A stretch of DNA of 63,331 bases, taken from a virus. Both the position numbers and the translations under genes were made by a program. This document shows, piece by piece, positions 881 to 53,117 of the stretch (its first letter is position 1; each line of letters begins with the position of its first letter). Below the pieces are notes generated by a model, which was given only the letters and a program-made list of their open reading frames with translations, made no database searches and had not been told where the DNA came from. Location of the stretch: the IMG/VR virus record IMGVR_UViG_3300037247_000518, positions 1 through 63,331 of that record. One strand, written 5' to 3'.

Positions 881-1112
881 TGTCAGAGCACATCGGAAGA
901 AAGTTGCCGCCGCACGGAGGAGCGGTGACCTAAAACCTTCTCCAGAATGTCATGCCTGCTTCATGCTTCAGTGCATCCGATGTGCGCGTTTGGATAATGG
1001 AGATGGCTCAAAGCGGTACAAGGGTAAGACGGATTGCAGTCATTGCCCCGAGCACTGCCCAAACAAGCGAGCTAGGCTGCCTATTGTAGAAGGCATCGAT
1101 AAAGTACCGTGA
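867..1112 (+). CDS. Small cysteine-rich zinc-binding protein
   Basis: An 81-residue protein starting at the ATG that follows GATTGAGGAGCG. It has a basic N-terminus and then cysteines arranged CHACFMLQCIRC and CSHCPEHC, enough for two zinc sites. Nothing shows a catalytic function. Its stop overlaps the GTG start of the DpdA-like gene as GTGA, so the two are probably translationally coupled. Confidence 0.6.
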   Translation: MTAASVRAHRKKVAAARRSGDLKPSPECHACFMLQCIRCARLDNGDGSKRYKGKTDCSHCPEHCPNKRARLPIVEGIDKVP

Positions 1113-2131
1113 GAAAGCTCCCATCCCCACCTATCCCTGATAAGCGTCTGGTCGTCTTCGCCGGTACGCTCCCCGGAGCACGCGGCAAAGCTCTACGTAA
1201 CAGGAAAGCTGAAGCGATCATGGTATCATTTGAAGCTATCCGCACTGGAGGCTGGTGGGAGCGTGAACGTGAGATGTACGATAAGTGGCCGCACTATCGC
1301 TACCTTGATAGTGGTGTCTTCACGCTCATGCGGCAGGCTGGTGTATCGAGAGTTAGCGCAAATACTCAGCCTAAGAAGCAGAGAGAGTCTACGCTTAGAA
1401 AGCGTATGCCAGTCAAGATTCTCAAACAAGAACGCCGTGTCGTTGTCGTACCACAGGCCATGATCCATGAGCGCTTTACCGCGTATCGCGACTACCTGAA
1501 AGAGCATCTTGATGAATGGGACTTCGCGCTCAATTTCGATATCGATCAGTTGAATATCGAACGTGAGGACGGTATGATCATATCAGGCCTGACCGTCGCC
1601 GAGCGCATGACTGCGCAGCTCTACGAGATATGCGGGCCAAAGCTGATCGTCGTCTGGCACCCCGCGAAGATGTCGTGGGATTATTGGAAGGGTCTAGTTG
1701 CCAGCTATGATTACCTCGCGATAGGGAGCGACGCGAAGCTCAGGAGTCGCATTATCAAGTACGCGTGTGACTACGCGCACACACAGGGTAAGCTCGTACA
1801 CGGCCTGGCGGTCGGCACGAAACTCCTCGATCGCATCCCATTCGACACCGCAGACTGTTCGACCTGGATCAGCGGTATTGTCTATGGAATCTTCGCCGGT
1901 ATTAATTATGGGCTGCGATACAAGAAGAACACGTGGGACGCTCGCCATGCGTGGCTTGAGGAATTCACCCGCGGCATCGGCTTAGACCCGGCTGTGCTGA
2001 AGACGAAAGACACGACTGGGCCGAATGCGGTTGCGAAGTTTGAAATTTGTGTCGCCTTATTCCAGCACAAACAAGCACTGCTGCGGGATATCTCAGTACC
2101 ACATGAGCCGGTGAGGTTGCCGATTAGTTAG
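1109..2131 (+). CDS. dpdA: DpdA-like 7-deazaguanine DNA transglycosylase
   Basis: A 340-residue member of the tRNA-guanine transglycosylase superfamily. LDSGVFT (Asp67) matches the TDSGGFQ active-site motif of TGT enzymes, NFDIDQLN lies near 142-149, and IPFDTADCSTW (243-253) resembles the second catalytic segment of phage DpdA proteins. The CxCxxC zinc cluster of tRNA-specific TGT is not seen. DpdA exchanges guanine in DNA for a 7-deazaguanine base such as preQ0, which blocks host restriction. QueC, QueD, QueE and FolE in this window would supply the base. The GTG start overlaps the preceding stop. Residues about 78-115 form an insert rich in Arg and Lys. Confidence 0.8.
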   Translation: MRKLPSPPIPDKRLVVFAGTLPGARGKALRNRKAEAIMVSFEAIRTGGWWEREREMYDKWPHYRYLDSGVFTLMRQAGVSRVSANTQPKKQRESTLRKRMPVKILKQERRVVVVPQAMIHERFTAYRDYLKEHLDEWDFALNFDIDQLNIEREDGMIISGLTVAERMTAQLYEICGPKLIVVWHPAKMSWDYWKGLVASYDYLAIGSDAKLRSRIIKYACDYAHTQGKLVHGLAVGTKLLDRIPFDTADCSTWISGIVYGIFAGINYGLRYKKNTWDARHAWLEEFTRGIGLDPAVLKTKDTTGPNAVAKFEICVALFQHKQALLRDISVPHEPVRLPIS

Positions 2132-5798: not shown

Positions 5799-6010
5799 GC
5801 ATCTTCGCCTCTGAGTTTGAGGCGGATTTTAAGGCGATGATATCGTCTGTCAATCTCGTCACAGATGCCTTAACTGAGCTTGCCGATAGCGCGTGTAGGG
5901 CTAGTGACGAAATCAGAGAGGCCGTCGAAGAAACGGAAGGAGATTGGGCAGACAAGTGGGCCTCCCACTATCGAGCCTATATAGAGCGTACAGAGTATGA
6001 TGATCTTTGA
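5795..6010 (+). CDS. Hypothetical acidic helical protein, 71 aa
   Basis: GTG start overlapping the previous stop. Mostly helical and acidic, with a W-rich segment (GDWADKWASHYRAYIE) near the end. It overlaps the start of the polymerase gene by 14 bases. Family unknown. Confidence 0.55.
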   Translation: MSIFASEFEADFKAMISSVNLVTDALTELADSACRASDEIREAVEETEGDWADKWASHYRAYIERTEYDDL

Positions 6011-8465
6011 TCCTAGCTGCACTCGCTGTATCTTGCATAGCGCGGCGGAAAGCGTCTGCATCCCTGCCTCTGGTCCTGACGACGCCAAGATTCTGTTCTA
6101 CGGAGAAGGCCCAGGCGGGGAAGAAGACAAGGAGAACGAGCCGTTCATAGGGCCAGCAGGCCAGGAGCTTGATGTACTTCTAGGAGAAGCCGGACTCTCA
6201 CGAAAGCGTGTGCGAGTCTCTAACACCGTCCGCTGCCGCCCGCCTGGTAATAGAGACCCGAGTGAAGACGAGCGCGCCGCGTGTATGCTCTATACTGTCC
6301 GCGAGATCGAGGCAGTGAAGCCGAAAATCATAATCGCTCTGGGTGTCTCTGCTCTCAAAGCACTTACGGGCATTAAGAAGATTGGCGATAGCCGAGGTAA
6401 ACTTCTTTCGCTGCTTCCACAGTATCGCTCGGATGTGCCGGTCATCGCCACATACCACCCTGCCGCGTATCTTCACAACCCAGGTATGCGTGGTGCGTAC
6501 TCGAAATCTATCATCGAAGACATGCGTCTCGCGCAAAAGGTGGTATCTGGCTCGGTCATGCGGGCGAAGATTGTCACGTCTCTGAACAAGGGTGCCGTTA
6601 TCAGACGAACGCTAAAGCGCCTCGCCAAGTGCGACGTGCTCGGCTGCGACCTGGAGTGGGAGGTTCTGCCGTCGAAGAAGAAGGACCCTCTTGGCATGTG
6701 GCCGTGGTCTGCACGTAGAGGTAAGCGTCCGCGTCCTGTGTCTATCGCCATCGCAGGCCGCGTAGACGACAAGATCCTCGCTCTGTCTGTGCCATTCACG
6801 AGCGAGTATGCGGACGACGTGCGCCAGATCATCCGTAGAGTGCCTACCATCTACCACAATGCGATGGCCGACTTGATCTGGCTATATCATCTGGGCTGGA
6901 AAGTGAAGCTCGATAGCTGTACGTTCATCCTAGCCTCGCTCTTGAAGATCGACAGTTCACTGTCACTAAAAGTCCTCGCGCCCATGCTGACAGACATGCC
7001 AGTAGGATGGGAGCGTGATGATTCTGGTATGGGCATCATGCCGGTTTCGAGAGACGAGTGGCGCAGGAAGTTAAAGTATGGTGGCTATGATGCCATCGCG
7101 ACATTCCTACTCAAGCCTAAGCTGCTTGAGCTGGTACACGAGCAGAAGCGAGACGATGTGCTCCCGCTCTATCATCACGTGTTGCTTCCTGCAACTGAGA
7201 TTCTTGCGAGGACAGCTCTGAGCGGTACACCCATAGATCAGCCGCTCTTGAAGTCTATACGGACGAAGGTCTTGCGTAGGGTTAGTGTTCTCACTGAGAA
7301 GATAGGCGATGAATTAGAATTGCCTGCTGATTATGAAGCGATTATCAGTAGCGACATGAAACTCGCTCCCTATCTTGAACGCGTTGGTGTGGACCTACCG
7401 AGGACAAGGAAGACCGATCGGCCTAGCGTCACGAACGATGTTCTGCTCAAGAACAAGAAGGCGCATACGGTCATTCCGCCTATCATCACACGTAGACAGT
7501 TGACTAAGCAAGAATCTGGCTACTGGCGGCCCTGGACGTGGCTCCTGGAGACACAGCGCGACAAACGGCTCCATACTATCTACCGGCTTTCGGTGGCCTC
7601 TACCGGGCGCTCGTCTACGGAGGGTGAAATAGGGTATACGTTCCAACAGTTTCTCAGAGGTAAAAAGTTTCGCCGCCTCGTTCAGGCTCGTAAGGGCTGG
7701 GAAATTCTCTCTGTTGACCAATCGCAGATCGAACTCAGGATCGTCGCCTGGCTCGCGCAAGAACGGCGCATGCTAGAATTCTTCCGGGATGATAAAGACC
7801 TGCATACTGCGATAGCGGGGTGGATGAAAGCCCTGGAAGCAGGGTGGACTATTAAGAAGTACATCAGGCACATGGAGCAGTGGACAGGGGATGTCACAAG
7901 GGCAGAACGCACCGGAGCAAAGCCCATCAACTTCGGCTTACTTTTCGGTGGCGGGCCATCTGTTGTTCAGAAGACCGCGCGCAAAGACTATGGGATTATT
8001 CTTAGTGATGAGCAGTCGGAAGTAGCCTACGATGCATATCACATCTTCTACCCTGACGTACGGCCCTGGCAGGAGACATTCTGGCGTGATGTCAAGCGCG
8101 GATATGGGGAGACATCGCTGGGTCGCAGGCGTAGTGTCAGAGAGGACGAAGAGGGGCCGGATGGCGTGTGGCGTAAGTACATCAACCTCGATGTGCAGGC
8201 TACGGCGTCTGATCTTTCATTGTTTTGCATGGACTACACATGGGAATTACTGAGGAAGGAGTTTGGTAGGCATCTCAGGAGTCTAGCCGAGAATATAGGG
8301 TTCTTCCACGACGCGACTTTGATCCACCTTGATCGCGAGGTCAGGAGTGAAGTCGGGGCCATTGTGAGAGAGTCGTGGGAGCACCCTCCACTAGACCGTA
8401 TAGGTCTCGAAATGGACGTGCCGCTGAAAGCTGATATCAAGATCAGAGAGCGTTGGACTACTTGA
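5997..8465 (+). CDS. Uracil-DNA glycosylase / family A DNA polymerase fusion
   Basis: 822 residues. Residues 1-190 are a family 4-like UDG: Cys8, Cys11, Cys80 and Cys96 fit the [4Fe-4S] ligands, GEGPGGEED (36-44) is motif A and YHPAAYL (153-159) motif B. Residues about 200-380 are a 3'-5' exonuclease with DLE (218-220), HNAMADL and a YxxxD segment (YGGYD), so proofreading should be intact. The rest is a Pol I-type polymerase: motif A VDQSQIELR (Asp574), motif B RTGAKPINFG, motif C FFHDATLIH (Asp772). Motif C has Ala where family A normally has Glu (HDE). UDG-polymerase fusions are known in some phages such as the SPO1 group. It is the replicative polymerase candidate, paired with the clamp. 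Confidence 0.9.
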   Translation: MMIFDPSCTRCILHSAAESVCIPASGPDDAKILFYGEGPGGEEDKENEPFIGPAGQELDVLLGEAGLSRKRVRVSNTVRCRPPGNRDPSEDERAACMLYTVREIEAVKPKIIIALGVSALKALTGIKKIGDSRGKLLSLLPQYRSDVPVIATYHPAAYLHNPGMRGAYSKSIIEDMRLAQKVVSGSVMRAKIVTSLNKGAVIRRTLKRLAKCDVLGCDLEWEVLPSKKKDPLGMWPWSARRGKRPRPVSIAIAGRVDDKILALSVPFTSEYADDVRQIIRRVPTIYHNAMADLIWLYHLGWKVKLDSCTFILASLLKIDSSLSLKVLAPMLTDMPVGWERDDSGMGIMPVSRDEWRRKLKYGGYDAIATFLLKPKLLELVHEQKRDDVLPLYHHVLLPATEILARTALSGTPIDQPLLKSIRTKVLRRVSVLTEKIGDELELPADYEAIISSDMKLAPYLERVGVDLPRTRKTDRPSVTNDVLLKNKKAHTVIPPIITRRQLTKQESGYWRPWTWLLETQRDKRLHTIYRLSVASTGRSSTEGEIGYTFQQFLRGKKFRRLVQARKGWEILSVDQSQIELRIVAWLAQERRMLEFFRDDKDLHTAIAGWMKALEAGWTIKKYIRHMEQWTGDVTRAERTGAKPINFGLLFGGGPSVVQKTARKDYGIILSDEQSEVAYDAYHIFYPDVRPWQETFWRDVKRGYGETSLGRRRSVREDEEGPDGVWRKYINLDVQATASDLSLFCMDYTWELLRKEFGRHLRSLAENIGFFHDATLIHLDREVRSEVGAIVRESWEHPPLDRIGLEMDVPLKADIKIRERWTT

Positions 8466-10419: not shown

Positions 10420-11151
<732 letters not shown>

Positions 11152-12738: not shown

Positions 12739-15640
12739 GATACGCGAAGCAGCCCTAGCTTACGCCGCACAGGGATGGCCGGTGCTGGCGTGCTATACGA
12801 ACACGCCAGAGGGCTGTTCATGTGGTGATAGTGGGTGCATATCTCCCGGTAAGCATCCGTTCCCTGACCTGAGTCCGCATGGTGTACAGAGTGCCACGAT
12901 TGACCTAGACGAGATCGCGGAGTGGCCGGATGATATCAACATCGGTATCGCATTAGGACACGAGAGCCTCATGGCGCTCGATGTAGATGATGCCGAAGTC
13001 GCCGCCGCTCTGCTAGCACCTGAGACAGTGCTGCACGACGAGACGGGCGCTGCGAGAACGGGACGTGGTGTCCATGTCTATTTTCTATGCTCTGGCAATA
13101 AGAAGACACAGCACCTCAGAGATAAAGTCACAGGTCATAAGATCGGCCACATCGCAGGCGTAGGCGCATACGTAATAGCACCGCCGTCTCAGGCGCCTGG
13201 CGGCAAGTTCTACAAATGGCTCGGGCAGGGTAGTGGCGTCTGGATACCACGCCTGACAGAGACAGTCAACGCGCTGAAGTACATTAAGCATCTGCTTGCT
13301 CCTCATGGCATCAAAGTAGTAGAGACACAGAGCATAGACATCGAGAACGTGCCAGATGTCCCTATCGAGGAGCATGACCTCAAGGACATCTCGCAACGCC
13401 TCGCACGAGACGGCGACTTGCTGAACATCAAGCGGCGTTTGTTGGGAAAGCGCGCGGAGGGTGTCAGGGATACCGAACATGATCTGAGCGGATGGGAACA
13501 CTCTATCGCCTGCCAGATTCTCCGCGTTGCCAAACGATATGCCATCAAGTCTGTAGACCCTCTACTGCTAGCAGGTATCATCAAGAAGCTCGACCGCGTC
13601 CACTACGGGAAGTTTGAGTCTGACGTAGAAAGGGGCAAGCGATCTCGTGCCGGTGCGGACAAGCGCTACTATGTCTCTGCCATACGCGCTCTGGATGCCG
13701 AGAATATGCGCCAACGGCAGCGTGTGGAGCACGCTAAGACGCCGGAACCGCTCGAACTGGACGAAGATACCAGTCCAGAGATGATCGGCGTTGTGGAAGA
13801 CGCTAGCTACATGTGGGATGAAGACACTGGAAGGCTCTATCATGTAACCCCTCATAAGAAGACGATCACCACGTCGAGGATCGCGAATTTCAACGTGAAG
13901 CTCGTCTCCGAGATCATGATAGACAAGGATGATGCGCTCCCAGACCGCGCGTGGCGCGTGCAGTTTACGTCGGCGTTCGGACAGGTGCGGGAGGTAGCAT
14001 TGCGAGCCGACGAATTCGACAGCACGAGGTCGCTAGAACAAGCGCTCACGAGGAAGCTTTCGCATGAGTACATCGTCTCGCACAATGGCTACGCTCACTT
14101 GAAGCCTGCCATCTTGGAGCTTACCGACCCGAATGAGATACAGCGGTACAGCATCAGAGCAATACCTGGGTGGTGGTCTGTAACGAACGATGCCGGTGAT
14201 GAAGAACGCGTCTACCTGCTTCCGTCTGCACTAGGAGCTATCACCAAAGACGGTATCATGACCAGCCTGCGCATGAGAATTGAGGAGCTTGCGGAGCTTG
14301 ACGACGCCATCGCCAGGAAGGAGTTCGAGCCGTATGGTAAGGGCGTGAGGCCGCCGGTATCTCGTACAGAGCGACGCAGAGCGTGGAAGGCGCTGCGCGC
14401 TTTAGCACAGTGCGCACCGTCGGAAGTAACGATGCCTATTATCTTGCAAGTGCTCATGGGACCATTGTGGTCTGCTGGTGCCGATGAAGTGCCTTCGTTG
14501 CTGCATGTGACTGGCAGGACGGGTGTGCTGAAGACAAGTTTCTGCCTTGCGGCAATGTCATTGTTTGGGACATTTCGTAAGACGACGCCGCCGACCGCAA
14601 GCTGGATGGCAGTCTCGCCTTCTGCGTTGCGGTCACTTTTAAATTCAGCGAAGGACATGACGGTCCTCGTAGACGACTACAAAGAAGGCGGCGTCATGGA
14701 CAAGCGCGGTATGCGCGAGTTGGTGCAGGCATACGCCGACAAGGCTATGCGGCAGCGCTTGAAGTCATCCGGCGAACGCCGTAAGAGCTTGGAGCTACAG
14801 GCTGTTATGCTGAGCAACGGCGAAGACAGATGGGAACGCGAAGCGTCGATGGTCGCACGGACGATCTTCCTCGACATACACGACCGCGATATCAAGGATG
14901 TCGATCTGCGTATCGCACAGGATGCCGTGGATGCAGGAGACTTGCAGCTCATGGGAGGACACTATCTATCATGGCTTGCTGGACAAGATGAACTCTTTGA
15001 GCAAAAGGGCGTTGAAGTGCTGCGCGAGAAGTGGCACAGGAGATTTCTTGACAGGTCTAGCAAGCGCGATGTGCATCGGCGCTTACTTCAATCTGCTAGC
15101 ACAGTAGCCGCAGTAGGCGATGTCTTCTTGATGTTCGTGAAGGAGTGTTATCCGAAGCGATACGAAGAAGCTCGCCACTGGGTACGAGGGTCGATCCGTT
15201 CGCTAGTATCTGGCACAAGAGAACGCGCGAAAGAAGTCAAGCAGCTTGCGCCTCTCAGGCAGATGCTTGATTATGTTGCGAGTGAAGCGGAAGCAGGCAA
15301 GGCGGCGTTGATGCCGCTGCACGGCATTACAGGTATCAGGACAAGATTGCCGGATTCTCCGCGAGCTGAAATCGTAGGCTGGTGGTCTGTGTCTAAGGAC
15401 AAGCGCTACGGAAAGAAACAACGCCTGATGCATCTTAACGAGAATACGACCTTCGGCTGGTATCATCGAGAGATGCGCAGACAGGGCAGAGACGTAAACT
15501 TCTCCTGGAGTGCGGTTATACAAGAAGCCAAGAACGGTTACGGTGCCTATGAACATCGTGTACGAGTTGGCCGTCACAAAAGACAAATCAGGCTGGTGTC
15601 CATGCCGTTAACACTGCTGAACATCGGTGAGGTACAGTGA
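12692..15640 (+). CDS. Prim-Pol primase-helicase
   Basis: 982 residues. The N-terminal half has the bifunctional primase/polymerase (AEP) fold: GIALGHESLMALDVDD with catalytic Asp97 and Asp99, RTGRGVHVYF, and GAYVIAPPS. A small cysteine group (CSCGDSGC) precedes it. The C-terminal half is a helicase-like ATPase with TGRTGVLKTS near 606-615 and VLVDDY near 660. It would prime and unwind during phage replication. The region after its stop holds repeats that could be the origin. Confidence 0.85.
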   Translation: MPRRRRKSGRSTPSSKIREAALAYAAQGWPVLACYTNTPEGCSCGDSGCISPGKHPFPDLSPHGVQSATIDLDEIAEWPDDINIGIALGHESLMALDVDDAEVAAALLAPETVLHDETGAARTGRGVHVYFLCSGNKKTQHLRDKVTGHKIGHIAGVGAYVIAPPSQAPGGKFYKWLGQGSGVWIPRLTETVNALKYIKHLLAPHGIKVVETQSIDIENVPDVPIEEHDLKDISQRLARDGDLLNIKRRLLGKRAEGVRDTEHDLSGWEHSIACQILRVAKRYAIKSVDPLLLAGIIKKLDRVHYGKFESDVERGKRSRAGADKRYYVSAIRALDAENMRQRQRVEHAKTPEPLELDEDTSPEMIGVVEDASYMWDEDTGRLYHVTPHKKTITTSRIANFNVKLVSEIMIDKDDALPDRAWRVQFTSAFGQVREVALRADEFDSTRSLEQALTRKLSHEYIVSHNGYAHLKPAILELTDPNEIQRYSIRAIPGWWSVTNDAGDEERVYLLPSALGAITKDGIMTSLRMRIEELAELDDAIARKEFEPYGKGVRPPVSRTERRRAWKALRALAQCAPSEVTMPIILQVLMGPLWSAGADEVPSLLHVTGRTGVLKTSFCLAAMSLFGTFRKTTPPTASWMAVSPSALRSLLNSAKDMTVLVDDYKEGGVMDKRGMRELVQAYADKAMRQRLKSSGERRKSLELQAVMLSNGEDRWEREASMVARTIFLDIHDRDIKDVDLRIAQDAVDAGDLQLMGGHYLSWLAGQDELFEQKGVEVLREKWHRRFLDRSSKRDVHRRLLQSASTVAAVGDVFLMFVKECYPKRYEEARHWVRGSIRSLVSGTRERAKEVKQLAPLRQMLDYVASEAEAGKAALMPLHGITGIRTRLPDSPRAEIVGWWSVSKDKRYGKKQRLMHLNENTTFGWYHREMRRQGRDVNFSWSAVIQEAKNGYGAYEHRVRVGRHKRQIRLVSMPLTLLNIGEVQ

Positions 15641-15666
15641 TGCCCTGTCGGATCACAGTCTATTCT

Positions 15667-15728
15667 CTGTCACTCTGACTCATACCTGTCACCTATCTAA
15701 TCCCTATCTAAGAGTGACAGAGTGACAG
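15667..15728. repeat. Four GTGACAG boxes, paired as inverted repeats
   Basis: CTGTCAC at 15667-15673 and 15686-15692 faces GTGACAG at 15714-15720 and 15722-15728. The outer pair extends to an 11-bp perfect inverted repeat (15667-15677 and 15718-15728). The boxes lie in the only sizeable gap of the rightward replication block, directly after the Prim-Pol gene, and abut a TATAAT hexamer. Candidate operator or replication origin. Confidence 0.55.
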
Positions 15729-15730
15729 TA

Positions 15731-15736
15731 TATAAT
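15731..15736 (+). promoter_or_regulatory. Perfect -10 hexamer beside the GTGACAG boxes
   Basis: TATAAT 2 bases after the last GTGACAG box. No good -35 lies 16-18 bp upstream; the boxes occupy that place, as at an activator-dependent promoter. It would serve the HNH/queD/queE/folE operon. Confidence 0.45.
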
Positions 15737-15765
15737 TGAGAAGCTATAGCGAGAGAAAGTGGGGG

Positions 15766-15780
15766 CGCCCCTTCGGGGCG
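15766..15780. other. GC-rich hairpin in leader
   Basis: CGCCCC-TTC-GGGGCG, a 6-bp stem followed by AAAAATTAAAG rather than a T run. It sits in the transcript leader of the HNH gene and may be a stability element. Confidence 0.4.
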
Positions 15781-15807
15781 AAAAATTAAAGTAACAAGAG
15801 GCTGTAT

Positions 15808-16347
15808 ATGCGTAATAAGAGTGTCACCGTCACCATAGAAGGTATCCAGAATAGCAGGAGAACATACGCCACAAAAGCGGTGTTAACGCACCTCCTAGAG
15901 AGGGACGGGCTTCTATGCCAGCTTTGTCAAAAGTCTCTTGGAGAGGAAGACCTTAGTATTGATCACATCATGCCACAGGGTGTAGGAGGGAGGCACACGC
16001 TAGATAACTTCCAACTAGCTCATGGGCGATGCAATAAGAGTAAGGGTAGAGGCTCACATGCAAACTTGTTATTCAAAGCAGGCATCATTCCAGTAGGCAT
16101 AGCTTCTACAAGCGCGGAGTATCGGATACTATATGCGGAGGCACGAGATGCTATAGAGACTCGTTGGTGGAGGAAGTGGGGTAGTAGCTTGGTTGGGTCT
16201 GGGAGGCGATACTCGATATCAGAATGGAAATACATTGAGGACGACGTGTACGCGAAAGTCTGGAAGCTGCGTGTAAGGAAAGGAGAAGAGGCGGCGCTGG
16301 CGTACGATCCAAAGCGATCAGAGTTCAGCAGAAGGAGTACAGTATGA
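15808..16347 (+). CDS. HNH endonuclease
   Basis: 179 residues with CQLCQKSL, LSIDHIMPQGVGG, LDNFQLAHGRCNKSKG, a complete HNH core with two CxxC-type zinc ligands. It may be a homing nuclease or a packaging-related HNH; the distance from the terminase argues for the former or a DNA-processing role. The leader has AGTAACAAGAGG. The ATGA end couples it to queD. Confidence 0.9.
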   Translation: MRNKSVTVTIEGIQNSRRTYATKAVLTHLLERDGLLCQLCQKSLGEEDLSIDHIMPQGVGGRHTLDNFQLAHGRCNKSKGRGSHANLLFKAGIIPVGIASTSAEYRILYAEARDAIETRWWRKWGSSLVGSGRRYSISEWKYIEDDVYAKVWKLRVRKGEEAALAYDPKRSEFSRRSTV

Positions 16348-16742
16348 AAATAGGGAAAACATATTACTTCGAGGCAGCCCATAGCCTGCCGGGACATAAC
16401 GGTAAATGTAGAAATCTTCATGGACACAGTTACCGTCTCGATGTTGAATTAGAAGGTATCCCGATACTATATCTACATTGCTCCGATGATGGGATGATTC
16501 TTGACTTCGATGATCTCGATAGGGCCGTCGAACGAATCATTGATGGGCACCTAGACCATAGAAATCTAAACGCTTCGTTACCTGAGTCTGAGGTCCGTCG
16601 AACAACTGCCGAACTGATTTGTGGATGGGTCTCAAGACGTATCGATCAGGAGCTAGCCGCAGTGAGGACTGGGCGTGACTTCCGTCTCTCTCGTGTCCGT
16701 CTCTGGGAGACAGTGAAGTCCTGGGCTGAGTGGACACCGTGA
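16344..16742 (+). CDS. queD: 6-carboxy-5,6,7,8-tetrahydropterin synthase QueD
   Basis: 132 residues. FEAAHSLPGHNGKCRNLHGHSY carries the zinc ligands His13, His26 and His28 and catalytic Cys22; LDHRNLN and the late Glu in LWET complete the active site. QueD converts dihydroneopterin triphosphate from FolE to carboxytetrahydropterin in the preQ0 pathway. It lies two genes upstream of queE and three upstream of the FolE fusion, so this is a dedicated pathway operon. Confidence 0.95.
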   Translation: MKIGKTYYFEAAHSLPGHNGKCRNLHGHSYRLDVELEGIPILYLHCSDDGMILDFDDLDRAVERIIDGHLDHRNLNASLPESEVRRTTAELICGWVSRRIDQELAAVRTGRDFRLSRVRLWETVKSWAEWTP

Positions 16743-17134
16743 CTAGTCCAGAGCGTCGTATCCTGCCTGATGTTCGCAAGAGCATCACGCACAAGACGGT
16801 GATCCAGGATCGTGCGATGGGCAACATCTCGCTATTCATCACAGCGGGTATGTATGATGACGAGGCTCTCGGCGAAGTCTGGATCAACATCGGCAAACAG
16901 GGGACGACGTTACGCGGATTGACTGATACGATAGCGATTGAGCTGTCCTTGCTTCTTCAGTATGGAGTCCCACTCGAAGCCATCGTCGAGCAGTTTCGTG
17001 GGCATCGCTACGAGCCACTTGGAACGACGGCGAACCCCCACATCCCAAACTGTGTGTCTATCATCGATTACGTGGTACAATGGCTAGAGTGGGCGTTCAT
17101 CACCGAGAGACAGAAGGAGGATCCTGATGCCTGA
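16739..17134 (+). CDS. TSCPD domain protein
   Basis: 131 residues from a GTG overlapping the queD stop (another GTG lies 9 bases upstream). MGNISLFITAG, EVWINIGKQGTTLRGL and VPLEAIVEQFRGHRYEP match the TSCPD domain found at the C-terminus of B12-dependent ribonucleotide reductases and as free-standing phage proteins. No reductase is seen in the window. In phages it often travels with nucleotide and queuosine genes; its role is unproven. Confidence 0.75.
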   Translation: MTSPERRILPDVRKSITHKTVIQDRAMGNISLFITAGMYDDEALGEVWINIGKQGTTLRGLTDTIAIELSLLLQYGVPLEAIVEQFRGHRYEPLGTTANPHIPNCVSIIDYVVQWLEWAFITERQKEDPDA

Positions 17135-17417
17135 TATTTATATCAATTTGACACATCAGCAATACAAAGAGGTCGAGCGACAAATGCGTGCGTTCGAGGA
17201 GACGACGCACGGCGAGGGCACAGCCTACTATCATAAGTCGTTCGCTATGGACGTGGGAGGCATCCGATTCGAGTTCCACGGCCCCCCCGTGAAAGCAAGA
17301 CGGGGTGCGCTCGTTCTCGGTGATCCGCTGTGCAAAGTTATGCAAGGGAGCGATCCCACTATACTATGCGATAAGCCAGAGGGGCATCCTGGAGAACACT
17401 CTCGGGCAGGCAAATGA
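17127..17417 (+). CDS. Hypothetical protein, 96 aa
   Basis: Overlaps the TSCPD gene end and the queE start. Contains a beta-rich middle (VGGIRFEFHGPPV) and a C-terminal CDKPEGHPGEHS metal-binding-like motif. AGAAGGAGGATCCTG precedes the ATG. Function unknown. Confidence 0.6.
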   Translation: MPDIYINLTHQQYKEVERQMRAFEETTHGEGTAYYHKSFAMDVGGIRFEFHGPPVKARRGALVLGDPLCKVMQGSDPTILCDKPEGHPGEHSRAGK

Positions 17418-18184
17418 TCGAAGTAAGCGAGATGTACGTAGCACCACAGGGCGAGGGGCCGAATATGGGTCGCCTGTCGCTCTTTGTCAGGCTGCGTCGC
17501 TGTACGCTGCGTTGTGTCTGGTGCGATACGAAGCAGACATGGGACAAGGGCGATCCAGATTACGAGAAGTATGAGACCTACGAGCCACACCAGCTTGCCA
17601 GCGCAATGCTAAAGAAGGGTCAGCCCTTTGGCAGACTTTCTTCGCTCGATGTCCAAGCCATTGTGCTGACGGGAGGCGAGCCGCTGATGTGGCAAGAGGA
17701 GATGGTCGAGGCATTGATTTCGTATCGTAGCACTCACGGTATCCCAGTCGAAGTCGAGACTTCTGGGACTATCGTGCCGAACACGGACATGCTCATGAAC
17801 TGTAGCTTCACCGTCTCGCACAAGCTAGCCTCTTCGCATAACGAGGGCATCCTGAGAGATTACCTGTGGAATGAGAAGGTTGTGCAGCGCATCATAGCGC
17901 ACAGCGGGCAATCTCTGCGCAATGTGAACTTCAAGCCTGTCGTAGACCCTGTTCAAGATGTCGTGGAGGTTGCGTCATACCTGAATTGGCTTAACAACAT
18001 ATCTGACCGCCTTGGAATTCCTTGGAGTTTCATGCGGGAGCACATCTATCTTATGCCACAAGGAACAAGTGCTCTTGAGCTGAGCGCCAACCAGGCGCCT
18101 ATTATTGAGATGGCGCAGGCTTACGGAGTGCGGTGTACTACGCGTATGCACATCATCGCATACGGAGACGAGAGGGGAAGATAA
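17414..18184 (+). CDS. queE: 7-carboxy-7-deazaguanine synthase QueE
   Basis: 256-residue radical SAM enzyme. Cys30, Cys34 and Cys37 (CTLRCVWC) bind the SAM [4Fe-4S] cluster, APQGEGPNMGR is the QueE N-terminal signature and LTGGEPL the second SAM motif. It makes 7-carboxy-7-deazaguanine from the QueD product; QueC then makes preQ0. ATGA and TAATG overlaps link it to both neighbours. Confidence 0.95.
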   Translation: MIEVSEMYVAPQGEGPNMGRLSLFVRLRRCTLRCVWCDTKQTWDKGDPDYEKYETYEPHQLASAMLKKGQPFGRLSSLDVQAIVLTGGEPLMWQEEMVEALISYRSTHGIPVEVETSGTIVPNTDMLMNCSFTVSHKLASSHNEGILRDYLWNEKVVQRIIAHSGQSLRNVNFKPVVDPVQDVVEVASYLNWLNNISDRLGIPWSFMREHIYLMPQGTSALELSANQAPIIEMAQAYGVRCTTRMHIIAYGDERGR

Positions 18185-19146
18185 TGCAGATCAGTATGGG
18201 CGCCGCAGCAAGCCTGGCAGAGAGCGTGTCCGATCTCCTGCAAGACGGCCTTGGACGCCTTAGTATGCGTGGGCCTACAGCGTTTGCTGGCATACCGCGC
18301 GGCGGCATACCAGCAGCCATGATGGTAGCGAGGGCCTGGGCTGGTCTTGGGGGTAACTCTGAGATTCCCGTGTTTAGCAGTGACGATGTGCCCGAATCGT
18401 TCCGCGAGCGTATCGTCCTCGTTGACGACATACGAGTCACTGGTAATACTCTGGCTAGAGCAAAGGCTCTATTTGCCCCGAATGTTATATCCCAAGTCGT
18501 ACTGGTGCATAAGGGATTAGCTTCTGATGTTCTATCTGGGATGGAGGTGCCAGCAAATGAATGGGTGACATTTCCTTGGGAGACTCGTGAGAATGACGGT
18601 AAGCCAGAGGACGCTGTCTCCAGGCTCATCGAGTATCTAGGTGACGACCCAACTCGGGACGAGCTACTTGAGACGCCTGCCAGGGTGCTGCGCTTCTACG
18701 ACGAGCTGCGCGCCGCCTCGGAGCAGGAGATAGTCTCTGCGACCTTTAAGTCTACGACAAAAGACCTCGTAGTAGTCTCCGGCATCCCGTTCGCTTCGCT
18801 CTGTGAACACCACATGCTCCCCTTCTTCGGAGAAGCGGCAATCGGATATATACCGAACGGAAGTATCCTTGGTTTGTCCAAGCCCGCTCGTGCTGTCCAG
18901 CAAGCAGCGGCGGCGCTGACAGTACAGGAGCACTTGACGGCGCAAGTCGCTGAGCAGATTAAGGAGTGGACAGGTTCGGGCGCTGTCGCTGTCTTCACAA
19001 CCGCTGTGCATTCCTGCATGGTGATACGCGGTGTCAAAGCCATAGGCTCCAGGACATCGGCGTCGGCAATGCTTGGCAGCTTCCGCACATCTCCTGAACT
19101 ACGTGCCGAATTCTTTGCGGTCGTTGAGGGGGCGAGCAGGCTATGA
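18184..19146 (+). CDS. folE: Phosphoribosyltransferase / GTP cyclohydrolase I (FolE) fusion
   Basis: 320 residues from the ATG overlapping the queE stop. Residues 1-130 form a type I phosphoribosyltransferase domain: AGIPRGGIPAA and the PRPP loop VLVDDIRVTGNT (78-89). Residues 150-320 are FolE: CEHHMLPFFG with zinc ligands Cys207 and His210, LGLSKPARAV, LTVQEHL, and VHSCMVIRG with Cys278. FolE makes dihydroneopterin triphosphate from GTP, the first step to preQ0. The fused PRTase may salvage or condense a base; its substrate is unknown. Confidence 0.9.
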   Translation: MQISMGAAASLAESVSDLLQDGLGRLSMRGPTAFAGIPRGGIPAAMMVARAWAGLGGNSEIPVFSSDDVPESFRERIVLVDDIRVTGNTLARAKALFAPNVISQVVLVHKGLASDVLSGMEVPANEWVTFPWETRENDGKPEDAVSRLIEYLGDDPTRDELLETPARVLRFYDELRAASEQEIVSATFKSTTKDLVVVSGIPFASLCEHHMLPFFGEAAIGYIPNGSILGLSKPARAVQQAAAALTVQEHLTAQVAEQIKEWTGSGAVAVFTTAVHSCMVIRGVKAIGSRTSASAMLGSFRTSPELRAEFFAVVEGASRL

Positions 19147-19382
19147 CGCGGCTTGAAGGTATAGTTGCGGGACACTGTACCGCTGACGATCATCACGAGT
19201 ACGGGGCTGAGCCTGAAGACTGCGTTTTGATAGACGGTAAGGAAGTTTGCCTCTATTGTCTTATTGATGTGGCTAAGCCGCATCTGATGTTTGAGGGAGA
19301 CTGCATTGCCAGAGAGGAAGAAAGCCTGAGACGGCAGCGAGAGGAACTTATTGGTGCTCCTGAGGGAGATCCCGGTGCTTGA
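19143..19382 (+). CDS. Hypothetical Cys/His protein, 79 aa
   Basis: ATGA overlap with the FolE fusion. Contains a DHHEYG motif, a VCLYCLID cysteine pair and an acidic C-terminus. Probably binds zinc. The -35 box of a promoter overlaps its stop codon. Confidence 0.55.
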   Translation: MTRLEGIVAGHCTADDHHEYGAEPEDCVLIDGKEVCLYCLIDVAKPHLMFEGDCIAREEESLRRQREELIGAPEGDPGA

Positions 19383-19408
19383 CAGCACTAGCAGAAAAGT
19401 TGTATACT
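19379..19408 (+). promoter_or_regulatory. Strong sigma70-like promoter of a leaderless gene
   Basis: TTGACA (19379-19384), 18 bp, TATACT (19403-19408). The ATG of the next gene lies at 19415, about where transcription should start, so the mRNA would be leaderless or nearly so. Confidence 0.75.
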
Positions 19409-19414
19409 GAAAGC

Positions 19415-19954
19415 ATGAAACTTCCAAAGAGGCTCAAGAGCGGACGCAGGCTGGTAGCAACGGCGGCTGATGGTCGTGTGGGTCTGTACTGTTTGGGAAC
19501 GGTCGATGAAGATGGCGACTACGCCCTCCTCCTTCCGAACGGTAAGATCAAGAGAGGTATGGTCGGTGCGAAAGGCTATCCTCTCGCGCCAAGCGGGAAC
19601 TGGAGGTGGCTTCGCGCGAGGAAAAAGCGAGTGCGAGAGCGCAGGGAGAAGAAGCTGCAGGCTATACAGCGGCGTTCGCGTAATGGCGACGAGGAGTCGA
19701 AGAAGGTCCTTGTTTCCAGCATCCATACCTGTGTGGACTGCAAGCGCAACATGCTTGGCTATCAGCACTCTCATACAATGCTCCACGAGCGCGGCTATGG
19801 CGTGGCGTCTATCTGTTGTCGGTGTGCGCGTCGGCGTGGCGGTCGCTGCGAGCTATACGACCGTACAGCGAGAATCAGACGCCACACGCAGCAACGAGAT
19901 GCACGCAGGGCCGAGTGGCGAGAACTAAAGCAACGGCTGAGGCATATCACATGA
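19415..19954 (+). CDS. Basic zinc-finger protein
   Basis: 179 residues from ATG 19415. A TTG 36 bases upstream is in frame but overlaps the -35 box, so the internal ATG is preferred. A beta-rich N-terminus (VGLYCLGTVDEDGDYALLL) is followed by a very basic helix and CVDC...CCRCARRRGGRC zinc ligands. A nucleic-acid-binding role is likely. It overlaps the next gene as ATGA. Confidence 0.6.
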   Translation: MKLPKRLKSGRRLVATAADGRVGLYCLGTVDEDGDYALLLPNGKIKRGMVGAKGYPLAPSGNWRWLRARKKRVRERREKKLQAIQRRSRNGDEESKKVLVSSIHTCVDCKRNMLGYQHSHTMLHERGYGVASICCRCARRRGGRCELYDRTARIRRHTQQRDARRAEWRELKQRLRHIT

Positions 19955-20367
19955 CATCGAACCGAGTGAAGACGATCAAGCGGCTGAGGCGTCTGGCGAA
20001 GACAATGACGCAGGCACAAGCTGCTGAGCGCCTCAATGTCCACCGTCAGTGGGTGCATGTGCTGGCGCACGACTACGGTATCAGGTTCCGGGGCCAGCCA
20101 AAGGCGCGGCCGCTCAGGCGCTGTGATACGTGCGCGTTCAAACTCTGCGATGCTCCCAGATGTCTACGCTGTAAGTGGACGCCCAAGAGGATCAAACGTC
20201 TTCGGGAGCGCTATGGGCTCTCGCAGATCAACATGTCTGTTCATGTCTTAAGGATGAATGTCTTCGCATGTCAGAGATGGGAGACTGGGCGAGCCCTCCC
20301 CGCTCCGAGATCGCTAAGGCTGCTTGAGCGCAGCGAGAAGAAGATCAGGCGCCGTACTACGGCGTGA
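19951..20367 (+). CDS. Double-HTH regulator with zinc ribbon
   Basis: 138 residues. MTQAQAAERLNVHRQWVHVL (residues 19-38) is a helix-turn-helix, CDTCAFKLCDAPRCLRC is a zinc ribbon, and KRLRERYGLSQINMSVHVLR followed by RWETGRALPAP is an XRE-type second HTH. Likely a transcription regulator. It is the last gene of the rightward block, expressed from the 19379 promoter, and ends 11 bases inside the convergent queC gene. Confidence 0.7.
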   Translation: MTSNRVKTIKRLRRLAKTMTQAQAAERLNVHRQWVHVLAHDYGIRFRGQPKARPLRRCDTCAFKLCDAPRCLRCKWTPKRIKRLRERYGLSQINMSVHVLRMNVFACQRWETGRALPAPRSLRLLERSEKKIRRRTTA

Positions 20368-20950
20368 TGCCGTTTGCCTCTAGTGCTTCTCTCCGTCTGA
20401 TGCAGGCTTTACACTTTCCACACGACAACTCGTCTGGGTCATAACAGCTTACGGTCTTTTGCAGCATTTCCGGGTCGCCACCGAGTTCAAGATACTCGTG
20501 TACAGCCCCGGCTTTTGATAGTGCTCTTAAACTCGGCCCAAGCAGAGGCGATGAGACCCTCACCTGGTATCCCGCTGTGTGCGAGAGTAGTGCTGATATG
20601 CCGGTATGGAAGTCCGCGTCATTGTCGGCGTACATATCGTCAGCGACTGAGCACAGCGCTATCTCTGATGCGCCGTAGAGCGCTTGTGCAGCGGCGCAGA
20701 GTAGTACGTTACGCTGTGGTATGTATGCATCATCGTGCTCGATGCGGTCGAGTCTCAGCATGTTGCGTATGATGTAGAGGCCGGCGTGGAGGGCTTCTGG
20801 TTGCGCTATGTGATCCAACTCTTTGTTGCTATACCTGATATTGAGATCGAAGTAGACGGGTGTCCAGTCTGGCGATTGCCGCCGCAAGAGCCAGAGGCCT
20901 ATATACGAGTCGAGTCCTCCTGAGTACAGGATGATTTTTCTAGTGCCCAT
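20357..20950 (-). CDS. queC: 7-cyano-7-deazaguanine synthase QueC
   Basis: 197 residues. ILYSGGLDSYIG is the PP-loop ATP-binding motif and SCYDPDELSCGKCKAC gives the four zinc cysteines. QueC converts the QueE product to preQ0. The start at 20950 has GGAG 8 bases upstream and lies inside the end of the preceding small gene. Unlike the other preQ0 genes it is on the opposite strand, downstream of a terminator-like hairpin, so its expression may be set separately. Confidence 0.95.
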   Translation of the reverse strand: MGTRKIILYSGGLDSYIGLWLLRRQSPDWTPVYFDLNIRYSNKELDHIAQPEALHAGLYIIRNMLRLDRIEHDDAYIPQRNVLLCAAAQALYGASEIALCSVADDMYADNDADFHTGISALLSHTAGYQVRVSSPLLGPSLRALSKAGAVHEYLELGGDPEMLQKTVSCYDPDELSCGKCKACIRRREALEANGITP

Positions 20951-21095
20951 CGCATAAGCTCCACGGCCAATCTTTCTCAACCACGTCGCGCATTGCCTTG
21001 CCGCACAGTCCACAGTTCGCATAGGTAGTGAGATTCGCCAATATGTCTGCTAAGTCATAGAGGCCAAACCAACGCTTCACGAGTCGTCTGATCAT
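20940..21095 (-). CDS. 51-aa protein with CxxC
   Basis: Starts in an ATGA overlap with the upstream gene and ends 11 bases inside queC. Basic N-terminus (IRRLVKRWFGLYDLADIL), a CGLCGKAM pair and a late Cys-Asp-Gly-His. Possibly a zinc microprotein. The exact tiling with both neighbours supports it. Confidence 0.55.
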   Translation of the reverse strand: MIRRLVKRWFGLYDLADILANLTTYANCGLCGKAMRDVVEKDWPWSLCDGH

Positions 21096-21265
21096 GTCTC
21101 CTCCTCCGCTGTGAATTCGATACTGCCTCTGGTTAAGCTGTGCTCCTCCATGTCGTGATCTCCTTCTCCGCTCTCTACTCGTGCGATAGCATCCTGCTCG
21201 TCTTCTGCTTCGACCAGGATGTATTCGACTGTAGTGTGATGGACTGCTACTCGGTACTTAGGCAT
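21092..21265 (-). CDS. DpnD/PcfM-like small protein
   Basis: 57 residues after GAAGGAGTCAATGAC. A strand (YRVAVHHTTVEYILVEA) is followed by an acidic helix (DEQDAIARVES), the pattern of the DpnD/PcfM-like domain. Function in phages is unknown. It is the first gene after the 21281-21322 terminator. Confidence 0.55.
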   Translation of the reverse strand: MPKYRVAVHHTTVEYILVEAEDEQDAIARVESGEGDHDMEEHSLTRGSIEFTAEEET

Positions 21266-21280
21266 GTCATTGACTCCTTC

Positions 21281-21322
21281 AAATGAAAGACCGCCGACCC
21301 AGTGTGAGCTAGGTCGGCGGTC
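21281..21322 (-). terminator. Intrinsic terminator, leftward
   Basis: Perfect 11-bp stem (21289-21299 with 21312-21322, GACCGCCGACC) with a 12-nt loop; on the minus strand it is followed by TTTCATTT. It lies after the H1-like gene and only 16 bp before the start of the small gene that leads into queC, with no promoter visible between. Confidence 0.75.
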
Positions 21323-21338: not shown

Positions 21339-22178
21339 CTACTTCTTGGAGCGCTTCTTCTTCGCGGCGCCCTTCTTCGCCTTCTTCGTCGTCTTCGTCG
21401 TCTTCTTCTTGCCGGTTGTCACCTGCCAGAGCGTGCTGGACTCGCCGCGTTCGACTTCCTCGCCTTCGCGGTTGGTCAGTACGCGCTTCACAGTCCGCCG
21501 TGTGGGGAACATGGCCTCGCCGGACTTCGTCCTGGTGAGCTTGTGGTAAAGCTCGTTGATCGTGGCCCCGCTCTTGAACGTGCCGAGCGCGTTTACCAAT
21601 GCCGGAACGCGGTCTTCTACGGGGACCGGCGTGTTCCTGTCGCTGCGTCGCTTCGCTGTCTTCTTTGTCTTTGGCTTCGCCTTACTCTTTGCCTTTGGCT
21701 TTGTTTTACTCTTTGACTTTGCAGCGCGCCGCTTGCGGGGGGGAGTGGGCTCTTCGTCTTCTTCATCTTCATCTTCCTCTTCTTCGTCTTCTTCTTCTTC
21801 TTCGTCCTCTTCTTCTTCGTCCTCCCCCTCTTCCTCCCCCTCTTCCTCTTCTTCGTCTTCGTCGTCTAGTTCGCTGTCGTCTAACTCCTCTTCCTCTTTC
21901 TTCTGAACCTTCTTCTTTGGTGCCATCTTGGTTCGTCCTCCTGTTGTCTTAATGCCTGCTTCTTTTGCAATCTCTGCGAGTTCTCCTGCAAGTTCGGCAG
22001 CCCCGTCTATGTACTCATCGACGCCAACGAGGAAGTCAGCAATCTCCCGCATCGAGTACGGATTCTCGTCGTGTAACTCCCCTCCTTCCAGAATGTATCC
22101 GAGGTGTTTCCGGCTCGGGCTTGGTAAGTCATTTAGGCCTTTCAGGACCTCCGCGAAAGCGTCTAGCGTCAGTGCCAA
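21339..22178 (-). CDS. Histone-H1-like protein with acidic tract
   Basis: 279 residues, TTG start with GGAGG 7 bases upstream. Residues 1-80 are helical and acidic, 95-143 almost only Asp/Glu, 147-178 a KSKSKTKPKAK-type Lys/Ala/Pro repeat, 185-255 a compact winged-helix-like core (EDRVPALVNAL, TINELYHKL, TRRTVKRVL, TLWQV), and 256-279 a Lys-rich tail. Order and composition recall linker histones. A paralogous core occurs at 33570-33959. An SD-like AGGAGG precedes internal Met85, so a shorter form may also be made. It may compact or organise phage or host DNA. Served by the promoter at 22206-22234. Confidence 0.65.
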   Translation of the reverse strand: MALTLDAFAEVLKGLNDLPSPSRKHLGYILEGGELHDENPYSMREIADFLVGVDEYIDGAAELAGELAEIAKEAGIKTTGGRTKMAPKKKVQKKEEEELDDSELDDEDEEEEEGEEEGEDEEEEDEEEEEDEEEEDEDEEDEEPTPPRKRRAAKSKSKTKPKAKSKAKPKTKKTAKRRSDRNTPVPVEDRVPALVNALGTFKSGATINELYHKLTRTKSGEAMFPTRRTVKRVLTNREGEEVERGESSTLWQVTTGKKKTTKTTKKAKKGAAKKKRSKK

Positions 22179-46357: not shown

Positions 46358-47845
46358 ATGCCATTGAGTAACGAGGCTGCTCTTGCACCGATGCAAAAGT
46401 CGGCCTTTGACGAGGTTCTGACGGCAGAGGCGACTCCTTCCATCCAGATTCAGTTCCCATATAACATCAACACCGACCTCGTAGAAAAACGAGAGAACAA
46501 TCTGGGGACGGTAACCCAGGCCGACGGTATGGCGGTAATGCAGAGTGGTGCGGCGGCTAATTCAGCAGCCCACTTGCTGTCGAAAGTCTTGTTGAAATAT
46601 AGGCCGGGTCAGGGTGCTCTTGTTCGGTTTACCGCCCTCTTTACGGCAGGGGTAGCCGATTCTGTCCAGTTGGCTGGGATAGGTGAGGTAGGAGACGGGC
46701 TGTTCTTTGGTTTCAATGGAGCGGTATTTTCTATTCTGCGCAGAGAGCAGGGCAAACCTGAAGTCCAGACTGTAACGATCACTAGCGGAGCTGTTACAGC
46801 AACAGGCAACATCACTATCAACCTAGATGGGGTAGCGAAGACGGTTGCCGTAGTCAGTGATGACTCCGCGCGGGAGGTGGCAGTGAAGATCGCCGCAGCC
46901 GACTTCTCGGACACAGGGCTTGGGTGGAGTGCGAGCGTCCACAACGCCACCGTGATCTTCAAAGCCTGGAGCGACGGGAACAAGGCGGGTACATTTTCGC
47001 TAGTTGATACGGATACGACTGGCGTTGCCGGGACATTTGCTGAGACAGTCGCCGGAGTTTCGACTACAAACGAATGGGTTGCTCAAACTGATTGGAACGA
47101 GGATAAGGCTGATGGTGCGGGAGACTTGCCGATCCTAGACCCAACGAAAGGTAACGTCTTCCAGATACGTTATCAATGGCTGGGATTTGGCCTCCTCTCT
47201 TTCGCAATCGAAGACCCTGCGGATGGGGAGTATCATACTGTCCATACGATTCGCTTCGCCAACGCCAATGTCATCCCCTCTTTGCAGAATCCTACTTTGC
47301 CGTTACATGTCATGGCGAAGAATATGGCAAATACGTCTAACCTGACCGTCAAGACAGGCTCTATGGCAGCCTTCGTGGAAGGGCACATCGTAGAGGACTC
47401 CGTCCTCCACGGGGTGTCGAATGCCATAACCGGGCTGGGGACGACGGAGAAGCCAATACTTTCCATCAAGAACAACCTGATCCATCAGAGTGAGATCAAC
47501 CGCGTCCGGGTGAGGCCTGAGTTCATCTCTCTGGCCACCGACGCTACTAAGGCCATCATCTTCAGGATACGCATCCAGTCCACATTGGAGGGGCCAGTTG
47601 CCTTCACGGATGTGGATGCTGATGTCTCAGTGATCTCCACCGATGTCGCTGCAACGGGGGTGACTTCGGCAACTGGTCGGGAAGCCTTGACGGTAACGCT
47701 GGGGAAAACGGACTCCCTGCTGATCAATGTTGATGAACTCGACAAGAAGCTGAACCCCGGTGAGCACATCACCATCACTGCCGAGGCGGTCAGTGGGTCG
47801 TCCCATGAGGCTTCGGCTTCGTTGACGTGGGCTGAGCTATTCTAA
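46358..47845 (+). CDS. Large virion surface protein with Ig-like repeat
   Basis: 495 residues (a TTG 15 bases upstream is in frame). The N-terminal 100 residues and GALVRFTALFTAGVADSVQL are jelly-roll-like; TATGNITINLDGVAKTVAVV with the following DSAREVAVKIAA is a repeat domain known from phage fibre and sheath-like proteins; the end is beta-rich. Probably a capsid or tail surface protein and a candidate glycosylation target. Confidence 0.6.
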   Translation: MPLSNEAALAPMQKSAFDEVLTAEATPSIQIQFPYNINTDLVEKRENNLGTVTQADGMAVMQSGAAANSAAHLLSKVLLKYRPGQGALVRFTALFTAGVADSVQLAGIGEVGDGLFFGFNGAVFSILRREQGKPEVQTVTITSGAVTATGNITINLDGVAKTVAVVSDDSAREVAVKIAAADFSDTGLGWSASVHNATVIFKAWSDGNKAGTFSLVDTDTTGVAGTFAETVAGVSTTNEWVAQTDWNEDKADGAGDLPILDPTKGNVFQIRYQWLGFGLLSFAIEDPADGEYHTVHTIRFANANVIPSLQNPTLPLHVMAKNMANTSNLTVKTGSMAAFVEGHIVEDSVLHGVSNAITGLGTTEKPILSIKNNLIHQSEINRVRVRPEFISLATDATKAIIFRIRIQSTLEGPVAFTDVDADVSVISTDVAATGVTSATGREALTVTLGKTDSLLINVDELDKKLNPGEHITITAEAVSGSSHEASASLTWAELF

Positions 47846-47868
47846 TGCAAGAAAGGAGTCATAAGGGG

Positions 47869-52233: not shown

Positions 52234-52658
52234 GCTACGGGACAGTAGAGGCCGGACTTCAGACCGAGATTCGGGCGATAGCCGCGTTTAGTGATGGCCA
52301 GGTGTCCATAAGCGATCATCGCGTCTTAGCGACGGGGCATCCTCACGTTGCCATACTCACATATCGTTCATTCGTCGCGGAACGCGACTCGGCAGACCAG
52401 AAGACACTATTCACCTGGACGACTCGCATACAGCTCTATGTTAGGTATACTACCGATGTGGATTCGGCGAAGGCGATGCGTGACCGGCGTGATGACATCA
52501 TCACGAGGATCCTAAATAATCCGAAGCTCAACAACACAGCGTTCGATAGCATGCCGGTACGTGGGAGCGTTTCGATAGACGAAAAGGTCGAAATTGGCGG
52601 CGTGCCTTATCTGGTGGAGTTCATCGACGTGGAGATCGAGGAGCGGGTGAGCGCATGA
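52230..52658 (+). CDS. Tail terminator-like protein
   Basis: 142 residues of alpha-beta pattern: helix (VEAGLQTEIRAIAAF), strand pairs (TRIQLYVRYTTD), DIITRILNNPKL, and PYLVEFIDVEIEE. This matches neck or tail-terminator proteins of siphoviruses. Confidence 0.6.
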   Translation: MSYGTVEAGLQTEIRAIAAFSDGQVSISDHRVLATGHPHVAILTYRSFVAERDSADQKTLFTWTTRIQLYVRYTTDVDSAKAMRDRRDDIITRILNNPKLNNTAFDSMPVRGSVSIDEKVEIGGVPYLVEFIDVEIEERVSA

Positions 52659-53107: not shown

Positions 53108-53117
53108 AAGGAGCATG

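Follow-up and report, generated by a model that had tools for sequence, protein, structure and literature searches.

A phosphoribosyltransferase domain fused to GTP cyclohydrolase I in phages with DNA guanine transglycosylases, a possible guanine-recycling step

Why would a phage GTP cyclohydrolase I (FolE) carry a phosphoribosyltransferase (PRT) domain in the same chain, and on which base would that domain act? The question arises from a 63-kb virus record (IMG/VR IMGVR_UViG_3300037247_000518, positions 1 to 63,331; hereafter the window). The first-pass annotation had read one of its frames as a PRTase joined to FolE within a 7-deazaguanine gene set, and had offered two roles for the PRTase, making a nucleotide from the base or recycling guanine for GTP.

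Table 1. Features of the fusion and its neighbouring genes in the window
Feature	Position	Strand	Evidence
DpdA-type DNA guanine transglycosylase	1109..2131	+	phrog_887 1.2e-10
QueD	16344..16742	+	PTPS 1.4e-32
QueE, directly upstream of fusion, overlapping start/stop	17414..18184	+	phrog_2076 2.2e-44
XGPRT-like PRT domain, residues 1-133	18184..18582	+	Pribosyltran, phrog_8995, AlphaFold2 and VIA-align Z 14-15 to HGXPRT/XGPRT/1vdm
Loop I R39-G40-G41	18298..18306	+	pairs with E. coli XGPRT RGG 37-39 in the alignment; G41 in 65/65
PRPP loop DDIRVTGNT, residues 81-89	18424..18450	+	D81, D82, G87, T89 in 65/65
Val85 (GTC) at catalytic Asp position (D92 of XGPRT)	18436..18438	+	alignment to relatives
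K110, equivalent of XGPRT K115	18511..18513	+	alignment; K in 59/65
W127-V-T-F-P-W-E133, base-stacking hood motif (XGPRT W134...D140)	18562..18582	+	W in 70/70 fusions
FolE domain, residues 142-314	18607..19125	+	PF01227 1.3e-54; Z 23.4 to 1wm9
C207-E-H-H210, zinc/catalytic motif of FolE	18802..18813	+	invariant 65/65
H276-S-C278, second zinc Cys of FolE	19009..19017	+	H276, C278 invariant 65/65
QueC	20357..21022	-	PF06508 4.2e-20

The fusion is encoded at 18184-19146 (+) by a single uninterrupted frame of 320 residues with no internal stop, running from an ATG at 18184 to a TGA at 19144-19146. This ATG overlaps the stop codon of queE by one base (TAATG), suggesting coupled translation, and a Shine-Dalgarno-like GAGGGG precedes it at 18172-18177. 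The 320-residue product is a PRT domain (about residues 1-135) joined to FolE (about residues 140-320). Its FolE half scored 184.7 bits against Pfam GTP_cyclohydroI (PF01227), for which the cut-off is 27. Judged only from sequence, the PRT assignment is weak, since the Pfam Pribosyltran match (1.3e-4 for the whole protein, 1.6e-5 for the isolated domain) lies under the Pfam cut-off; this half also matched phrog_8995 at 2.8e-5. An AlphaFold2 model of the fusion, made with an alignment of 65 fusions, reached pLDDT 93.5 and pTM 0.79. VIA-align placed its residues 1-155 on the Sulfolobus HGXPRT 4z1o (Z 15.3, 141 aligned, rmsd 4.8), residues 1-146 on 1vdm (Z 14.6, 125 aligned, rmsd 3.1) and residues 139-315 on FolE 1wm9 (Table 1), and matched E. 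coli XGPRT entries to the PRT half at Z about 14. The structure match and the co-linear fusions in relatives make the PRT domain firm: it is real, and in the predicted model its fold is that of a type I PRTase, XGPRT-like. A frameshift or two separate genes are ruled out by the single frame and the co-linear homologues, and an assembly artefact by cultured phages with the same fusion. The reading of one frame as PRTase plus FolE is thus upheld by the frame itself, by Pfam and by the model, and neither finding named beforehand as speaking against it was made: no frameshift splits the domains, and the fusion, far from being absent in relatives, is widespread among them.

The FolE half had been described as having intact zinc and catalytic residues, and it does: C207, H209, H210, H276, C278, S232, K233, R236, Q248, E249 and R282 are all present and invariant in 65 of 65 aligned rows. 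Its zinc ligands, its catalytic residues and a PF01227 score above the cut-off make the window protein a member of FolE. Ten positions of its FolE half (154, 160, 193, 195, 244, 246, 250, 263, 267 and 293) differ from the family, and its row is a long branch (2.22) on the FolE tree; because of these departures and this branch, we regard it as a diverged copy.

The PRT half keeps both the RGG of loop I and the PRPP loop DD..(S/T)G.T of a type I PRTase, as well as the Lys and Trp of a 6-oxopurine site (K110 and W127). We take K110, like K115 of XGPRT, to be a base contact, and the roles of the other pocket residues are likewise presumed from general knowledge of XGPRT. Relative to E. coli XGPRT, the fusions retain RGG 37-39, D88-D89, D92, TG.T, K115, W134 and the PW(E/D) end. 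Across the 65-row alignment the majority residue accounts for 94% on average at 15 presumed ligand positions, against a mean conservation of 32% at other PRT positions and 63% in FolE. The catalytic Asp, on which the first-pass annotation was silent, is D in 68 of 70 fusions (63 of 65 in the 65-row alignment), the exceptions being one locus with A (L076) and the window with V. Because Val85 replaces this Asp, a defining residue of an XGPRT-like PRTase, we name the window domain XGPRT-like and not XGPRT. Activity is doubtful in the window copy, whose PRT half, to judge from Val85, may catalyse weakly, catalyse differently or do no more than bind. The spacer from RGG to DD has a median of 26 residues in the fusions vs 48 in E. 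coli XGPRT, so that the flexible loop II is mostly missing; the window, left out of this median because trimming had cut its RGG, has 39 residues counted by hand, and its domain does not have the flexible loop II either. In HPRTs this loop covers the active site, according to excerpts of PMC6783271. The PRT domain is XGPRT-like but minimal, with the pocket conserved and loop II mostly missing.

The placement of the fusion in a 7-deazaguanine gene set was confirmed, with QueD, QueE, QueC and DpdA all in the window (Table 1). Together with FolE these form the gene set expected for dPreQ0, as given in part of PMC6884629. The DpdA-type gene matched a DpdA profile, which has the window sequence among its members, at 3e-44 (1109..2131), and is followed by a sliding clamp, a helicase and DNA polymerase A. 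No match to a ribonucleotide reductase (RNR) large subunit was found in the window record. Between QueD and QueE (16730-17134, +) lies a stand-alone TSCPD domain (4.7e-35) that resembles the tail of B12-dependent ribonucleotide reductase. Elsewhere in the window, an 822-residue frame (5997-8465, +) places a uracil-DNA-glycosylase-superfamily domain (3.5e-28) ahead of DNA polymerase A (5.6e-41), and two proteins with long Glu/Asp runs are encoded at 10420-11151 (+) and 21339-22178 (-). The structural genes (47845-54381, +) are interspersed with genes that perhaps serve virion or base decoration: one for a DegT/DnrJ aminotransferase (1.6e-71), one for a methyltransferase-like protein, and others for glycosyltransferases. 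A search through the window primase found no closer relatives, and a search of 15500-21300 found no RNA elements.

How widely is the fusion spread? Among cultured phages, tblastn returned 390 records with a FolE match, of which 33 cover 80% or more of the query. All the representatives inspected (Vibrio 1.207.B and VpKK5, Sphingomonas MMDA13, Pseudomonas NP1, a Stenotrophomonas phage and Variovorax VPv64) have the PRT half. Those cultured-phage fusions that are annotated carry the name GTP cyclohydrolase only; the MMDA13 paper calls gp31 FolE, and the word "phosphoribosyl" is absent from its accessible text (PMC7472734). Adding the best 80 of 576 loci from an IMG/VR profile scan, a choice that leans to full-length fusions, gave 95 loci, or 94 with a FolE protein once the window itself (L001) was left out. 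The PRPP motif is in the same frame as FolE in 88 of the 94; those without it (L004, L005, L006, L013, L014 and L032) were dropped, and the 88 yielded 70 non-redundant fusions at 90% identity, window included. In cellular DNA, one contig (L104) matched both halves among the best 80 loci of at least 592 matched genome_contigs stretches, in a scan driven by FolE motifs that rare cellular fusions could escape. Its bin is labelled as an Anaerolinea thermophila MAG, yet with the full set of queE, queC, queD, fused folE, dpdA, clamp and polA the contig has the appearance of phage DNA that was sorted into a MAG; a cellular origin of the fusion was rejected, the lone candidate among these 80 loci being phage-like. 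On the FolE tree the fused label needs nine changes (quick method). The solo FolEs of CAjan, K4PH164, R7M, Pa-X, RHEph06 and pVco-14 group with eight fused rows (SH-aLRT 98), and their position inside the fused set suggests loss of the PRT half, the placement of the window row being unsure on its long branch. A literature search over open-access papers found none describing a PRT-FolE fusion in phages, and the accessible portions of PMC6884629, PMC6112128, PMC7472734, PMC13329287, PMC7824862, PMC9025141, PMC8306585 and PMC6783271 do not describe it.

The fusion travels with DpdA. Scored with HMMs built in this analysis, DpdA, QueD and QueE were found in every one of the 40 non-redundant fusions whose two flanks each span at least 2.5 kb, and QueC in 21 of these 40. 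Over all 70 fusions the counts were 58 for DpdA and 67 each for QueD and QueE, and the 12 without DpdA are loci cut near the end of the stored DNA. Since DpdA accompanies every well-flanked fusion, the modified base needs no nucleotide form. The PRT domain is dispensable, since several DpdA phages have FolE without it (CAjan, R7M, pVco-14, Dp-1, RHEph06 and Cracklewink).

The domain also occurs as a separate protein. A tblastn search with a Brevundimonas phage XPRT matched 22 phage records, seven from Campylobacter phages, five from Cellulophaga, four from Flavobacterium, two from Brevundimonas, two unnamed, and one short record each from Escherichia and Salmonella. In Flavobacterium phage immuto, the PRT, FolE and an annotated DpdA are separate proteins encoded near one another, with QueD and QueE close by, and in locus L032 a mini-PRT stands as its own ORF immediately ahead of the FolE ORF. 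A further 104 IMG/VR loci were fetched with the PRT, one part of them being 80 kept of 133 and three (L210-L212) being fusions themselves, counted in the spacer and Asp tallies. The spacer is short (at most 38 residues) in 88 of the 104, FolE, a Que gene or DpdA is in the locus for 83 of these 88, and every one of the 102 proteins scored retains the catalytic Asp. From the 104 loci and five named phages we chose 47 records of at least 30 kb, near-copies being partly left out; they share ancestry and so are not independent, and many are fragments. A DpdA family member is present in 37 of the 47 (33 type B, the four others type A) and FolE in 35. PRT and DpdA occur with no FolE detected in eight (G002, G003, G005, G006, G007, G013, G014 and G041), PRT and FolE with no DpdA found in six (G010, G012, G017, G024, G025 and G026), and PRT with neither found in four (G008, G009, G016 and W04). 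Because of the eight, the PRT appears to follow base exchange even without a visible FolE.

The DpdA of immuto belongs to phrog_19058, labelled "unknown function", and is 44% identical over 96% to a protein of Campylobacter phage CP220. This second DpdA family is the type B counted in 33 of the long records, type A being the first family. In a single comparison (62 and 22 sequences) the profile of this family matched DpdA with prob 95.5 and E 1.5e-8, with the motifs DSG and DSSSW paired to DNS and DTSNP in the alignment, while three unrelated control profiles gave prob of at most 0.6; an earlier comparison of DpdA-A with DpdA-B, with few sequences, had given prob 5. A DpdA-superfamily protein of phrog_19058 is encoded in CP220-group Campylobacter phages (L185, CP220, FN667788.1 54666-55442) and may already be described in later papers; part of PMC6884629 discusses these phages as DpdA-independent. 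In HVTV-1, a virus without known DpdA, gp69 (DUF6610; L184:6552-7712) adjoins FolE, and a profile test gave no support for gp69 as a hidden DpdA.

What might the domain do? One account, which we find as easy to believe as to doubt, is that it turns the guanine expelled by DpdA into GMP, on the way back to GTP for FolE. The FolE half would open GTP as the first step to preQ0, with QueD, QueE and QueC; DpdA would swap guanine in phage DNA for preQ0, freeing one guanine per base inserted; the XGPRT-like domain would join the freed guanine to PRPP to give GMP; and host kinases would return GMP to GTP, the substrate of FolE. Removing guanine would also pull the base exchange forward. Each insertion would cost a GTP and free a guanine, a balance that would explain a 1:1 tie in a fusion; a point against the scheme is that FolE uses GTP, not GMP, which leaves no direct channel between the halves. 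DpdA is taken in part of PMC6884629 to work by base exchange like TGT, so that each insertion would free a guanine, and the same text gives 70,628 dPreQ0 per million nt for CAjan, with a 59,670-bp genome. By arithmetic this is about 8,400 dPreQ0 per genome and, if the exchange is one for one, as many guanines freed, or about 1.4 mM for an assumed burst of 100 and volume of 1 fL. The solubility of guanine is tens of micromolar, far below that value.

Guanine recycling builds on the fusion, its breadth, its conserved pocket and its link to DpdA, all of which we observed. It presumes guanine as the substrate, catalysis despite the mostly missing loop II, and flow to GTP. For it we count the nearest solved relatives, which are guanine, xanthine and hypoxanthine PRTs, the natural splits in L032 and immuto, and the DpdA family members in 37 of the 47 long records; against it we count the mostly missing loop II, the Asp gone in the window and L076, the DpdA phages that have FolE but do without a PRT domain, and those of the 47 long records with PRT and FolE but no DpdA (six) or with neither (four). 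On this genomic evidence we favour guanine recycling over nucleotide making among the two roles first offered.

It is chiefly because loop II is mostly missing that we retain another explanation, unlikely as we judge it, in which the PRT fold is a non-catalytic sensor whose binding of PRPP, guanine or a guanine nucleotide would tune FolE in the manner of GFRP. Loss of the loop, seen in the fusions and in the 88 of 104 further loci with spacers of at most 38 residues, would spare binding but blunt turnover, and the sensor would also suit the loss of the Asp in the window and L076 and the position of the PRT, fused to FolE or neighbouring it. Chemistry, however, depends on the catalytic Asp more than PRPP binding does, and retention of this residue in 68 of 70 fusions and 102 of 102 further proteins, together with the eight records that have DpdA and no FolE, where there is nothing to regulate, is mainly why the sensor ranks below recycling. 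The likeness to GFRP, the regulator of animal FolE, is that of an added module on FolE and holds under the sensor model only; GFRP is a separate protein with an unrelated fold.

It is improbable that the substrate is instead a 7-deazaguanine, with the PRT placing ribose phosphate onto preQ0, CDG or ADG to make a nucleotide for the dNTP pool. A 7-deaza base needs no Asp at the N7 site, as would suit the window, but nearly all copies retain this Asp. RNR lies near the PRT in some phages, but no match to its large subunit was found in the window. In CP220 and CPt10, dG is 100% replaced by dADG, as stated in part of PMC8306585, and CP220 has a PRT; it also has the DpdA-superfamily protein. TubE and ToyH of the tubercidin and toyocamycin clusters resemble the fusion in that a PRT, CDG-specific in the case of TubE, works in a pathway with its own FolE and QueD- and QueE-like enzymes; unlike the fusion, it is a separate protein acting on CDG in an antibiotic pathway, for which the accessible text names no DNA transglycosylase (PMC6112128). 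A TubE-like reaction is chemically sound, yet a phage whose DpdA inserts the free base has no need of it, and all well-flanked fusions carry DpdA. Very improbable is general purine salvage, in which any 6-oxopurine from degraded host nucleic acid would feed phage nucleotides with FolE as a convenient partner: guanine, xanthine and hypoxanthine are all substrates of relatives, going by the entry title of 4z1o, but phage XPRT-like genes are not randomly spread, with the DpdA family in 37 of 47 long records.

Among known systems, XGPRT and the archaeal HGXPRTs (E. coli Gpt, Sulfolobus GpT-2 and P. horikoshii 1vdm) share the fold, the RGG loop I, DD..TG.T, the Lys and the W..PW(E/D) hood; unlike them, the fusion PRT has loop II mostly missing and is fused to FolE, and the window copy has Val for the catalytic Asp. 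Queuovirinae and other 7-deazaguanine phages share the FolE domain and the neighbours queD, queE, queC and dpdA; 9g and CAjan are the studied models, and the CAjan FolE, without a PRT half, sits inside a set with fused FolE. In NP1, PaMx25, VpKK5 and MMDA13 the PRT half is present and unannotated.

We propose, tentatively and with doubt slightly outweighing belief, that PRTases short of loop II, fused to or near FolE or DpdA, constitute an unrecognised guanine-recycling step and a new minimal PRTase class. Models of phage 7-deazaguanine DNA modification run from GTP to the inserted base, and the expelled guanine goes unmentioned in the accessible portion of PMC6884629. The presence of a fused PRT half corrects the annotation of the NP1, PaMx25, VpKK5 and MMDA13 proteins, so far FolE only. 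A domain whose conservation lies mainly in its pocket, and which accompanies the transglycosylase in unrelated phages, points to a step that these models lack, and guanine recycling, if true, would close the loop in phage guanine-exchange modification, each turn taking in a GTP and giving out a guanine.
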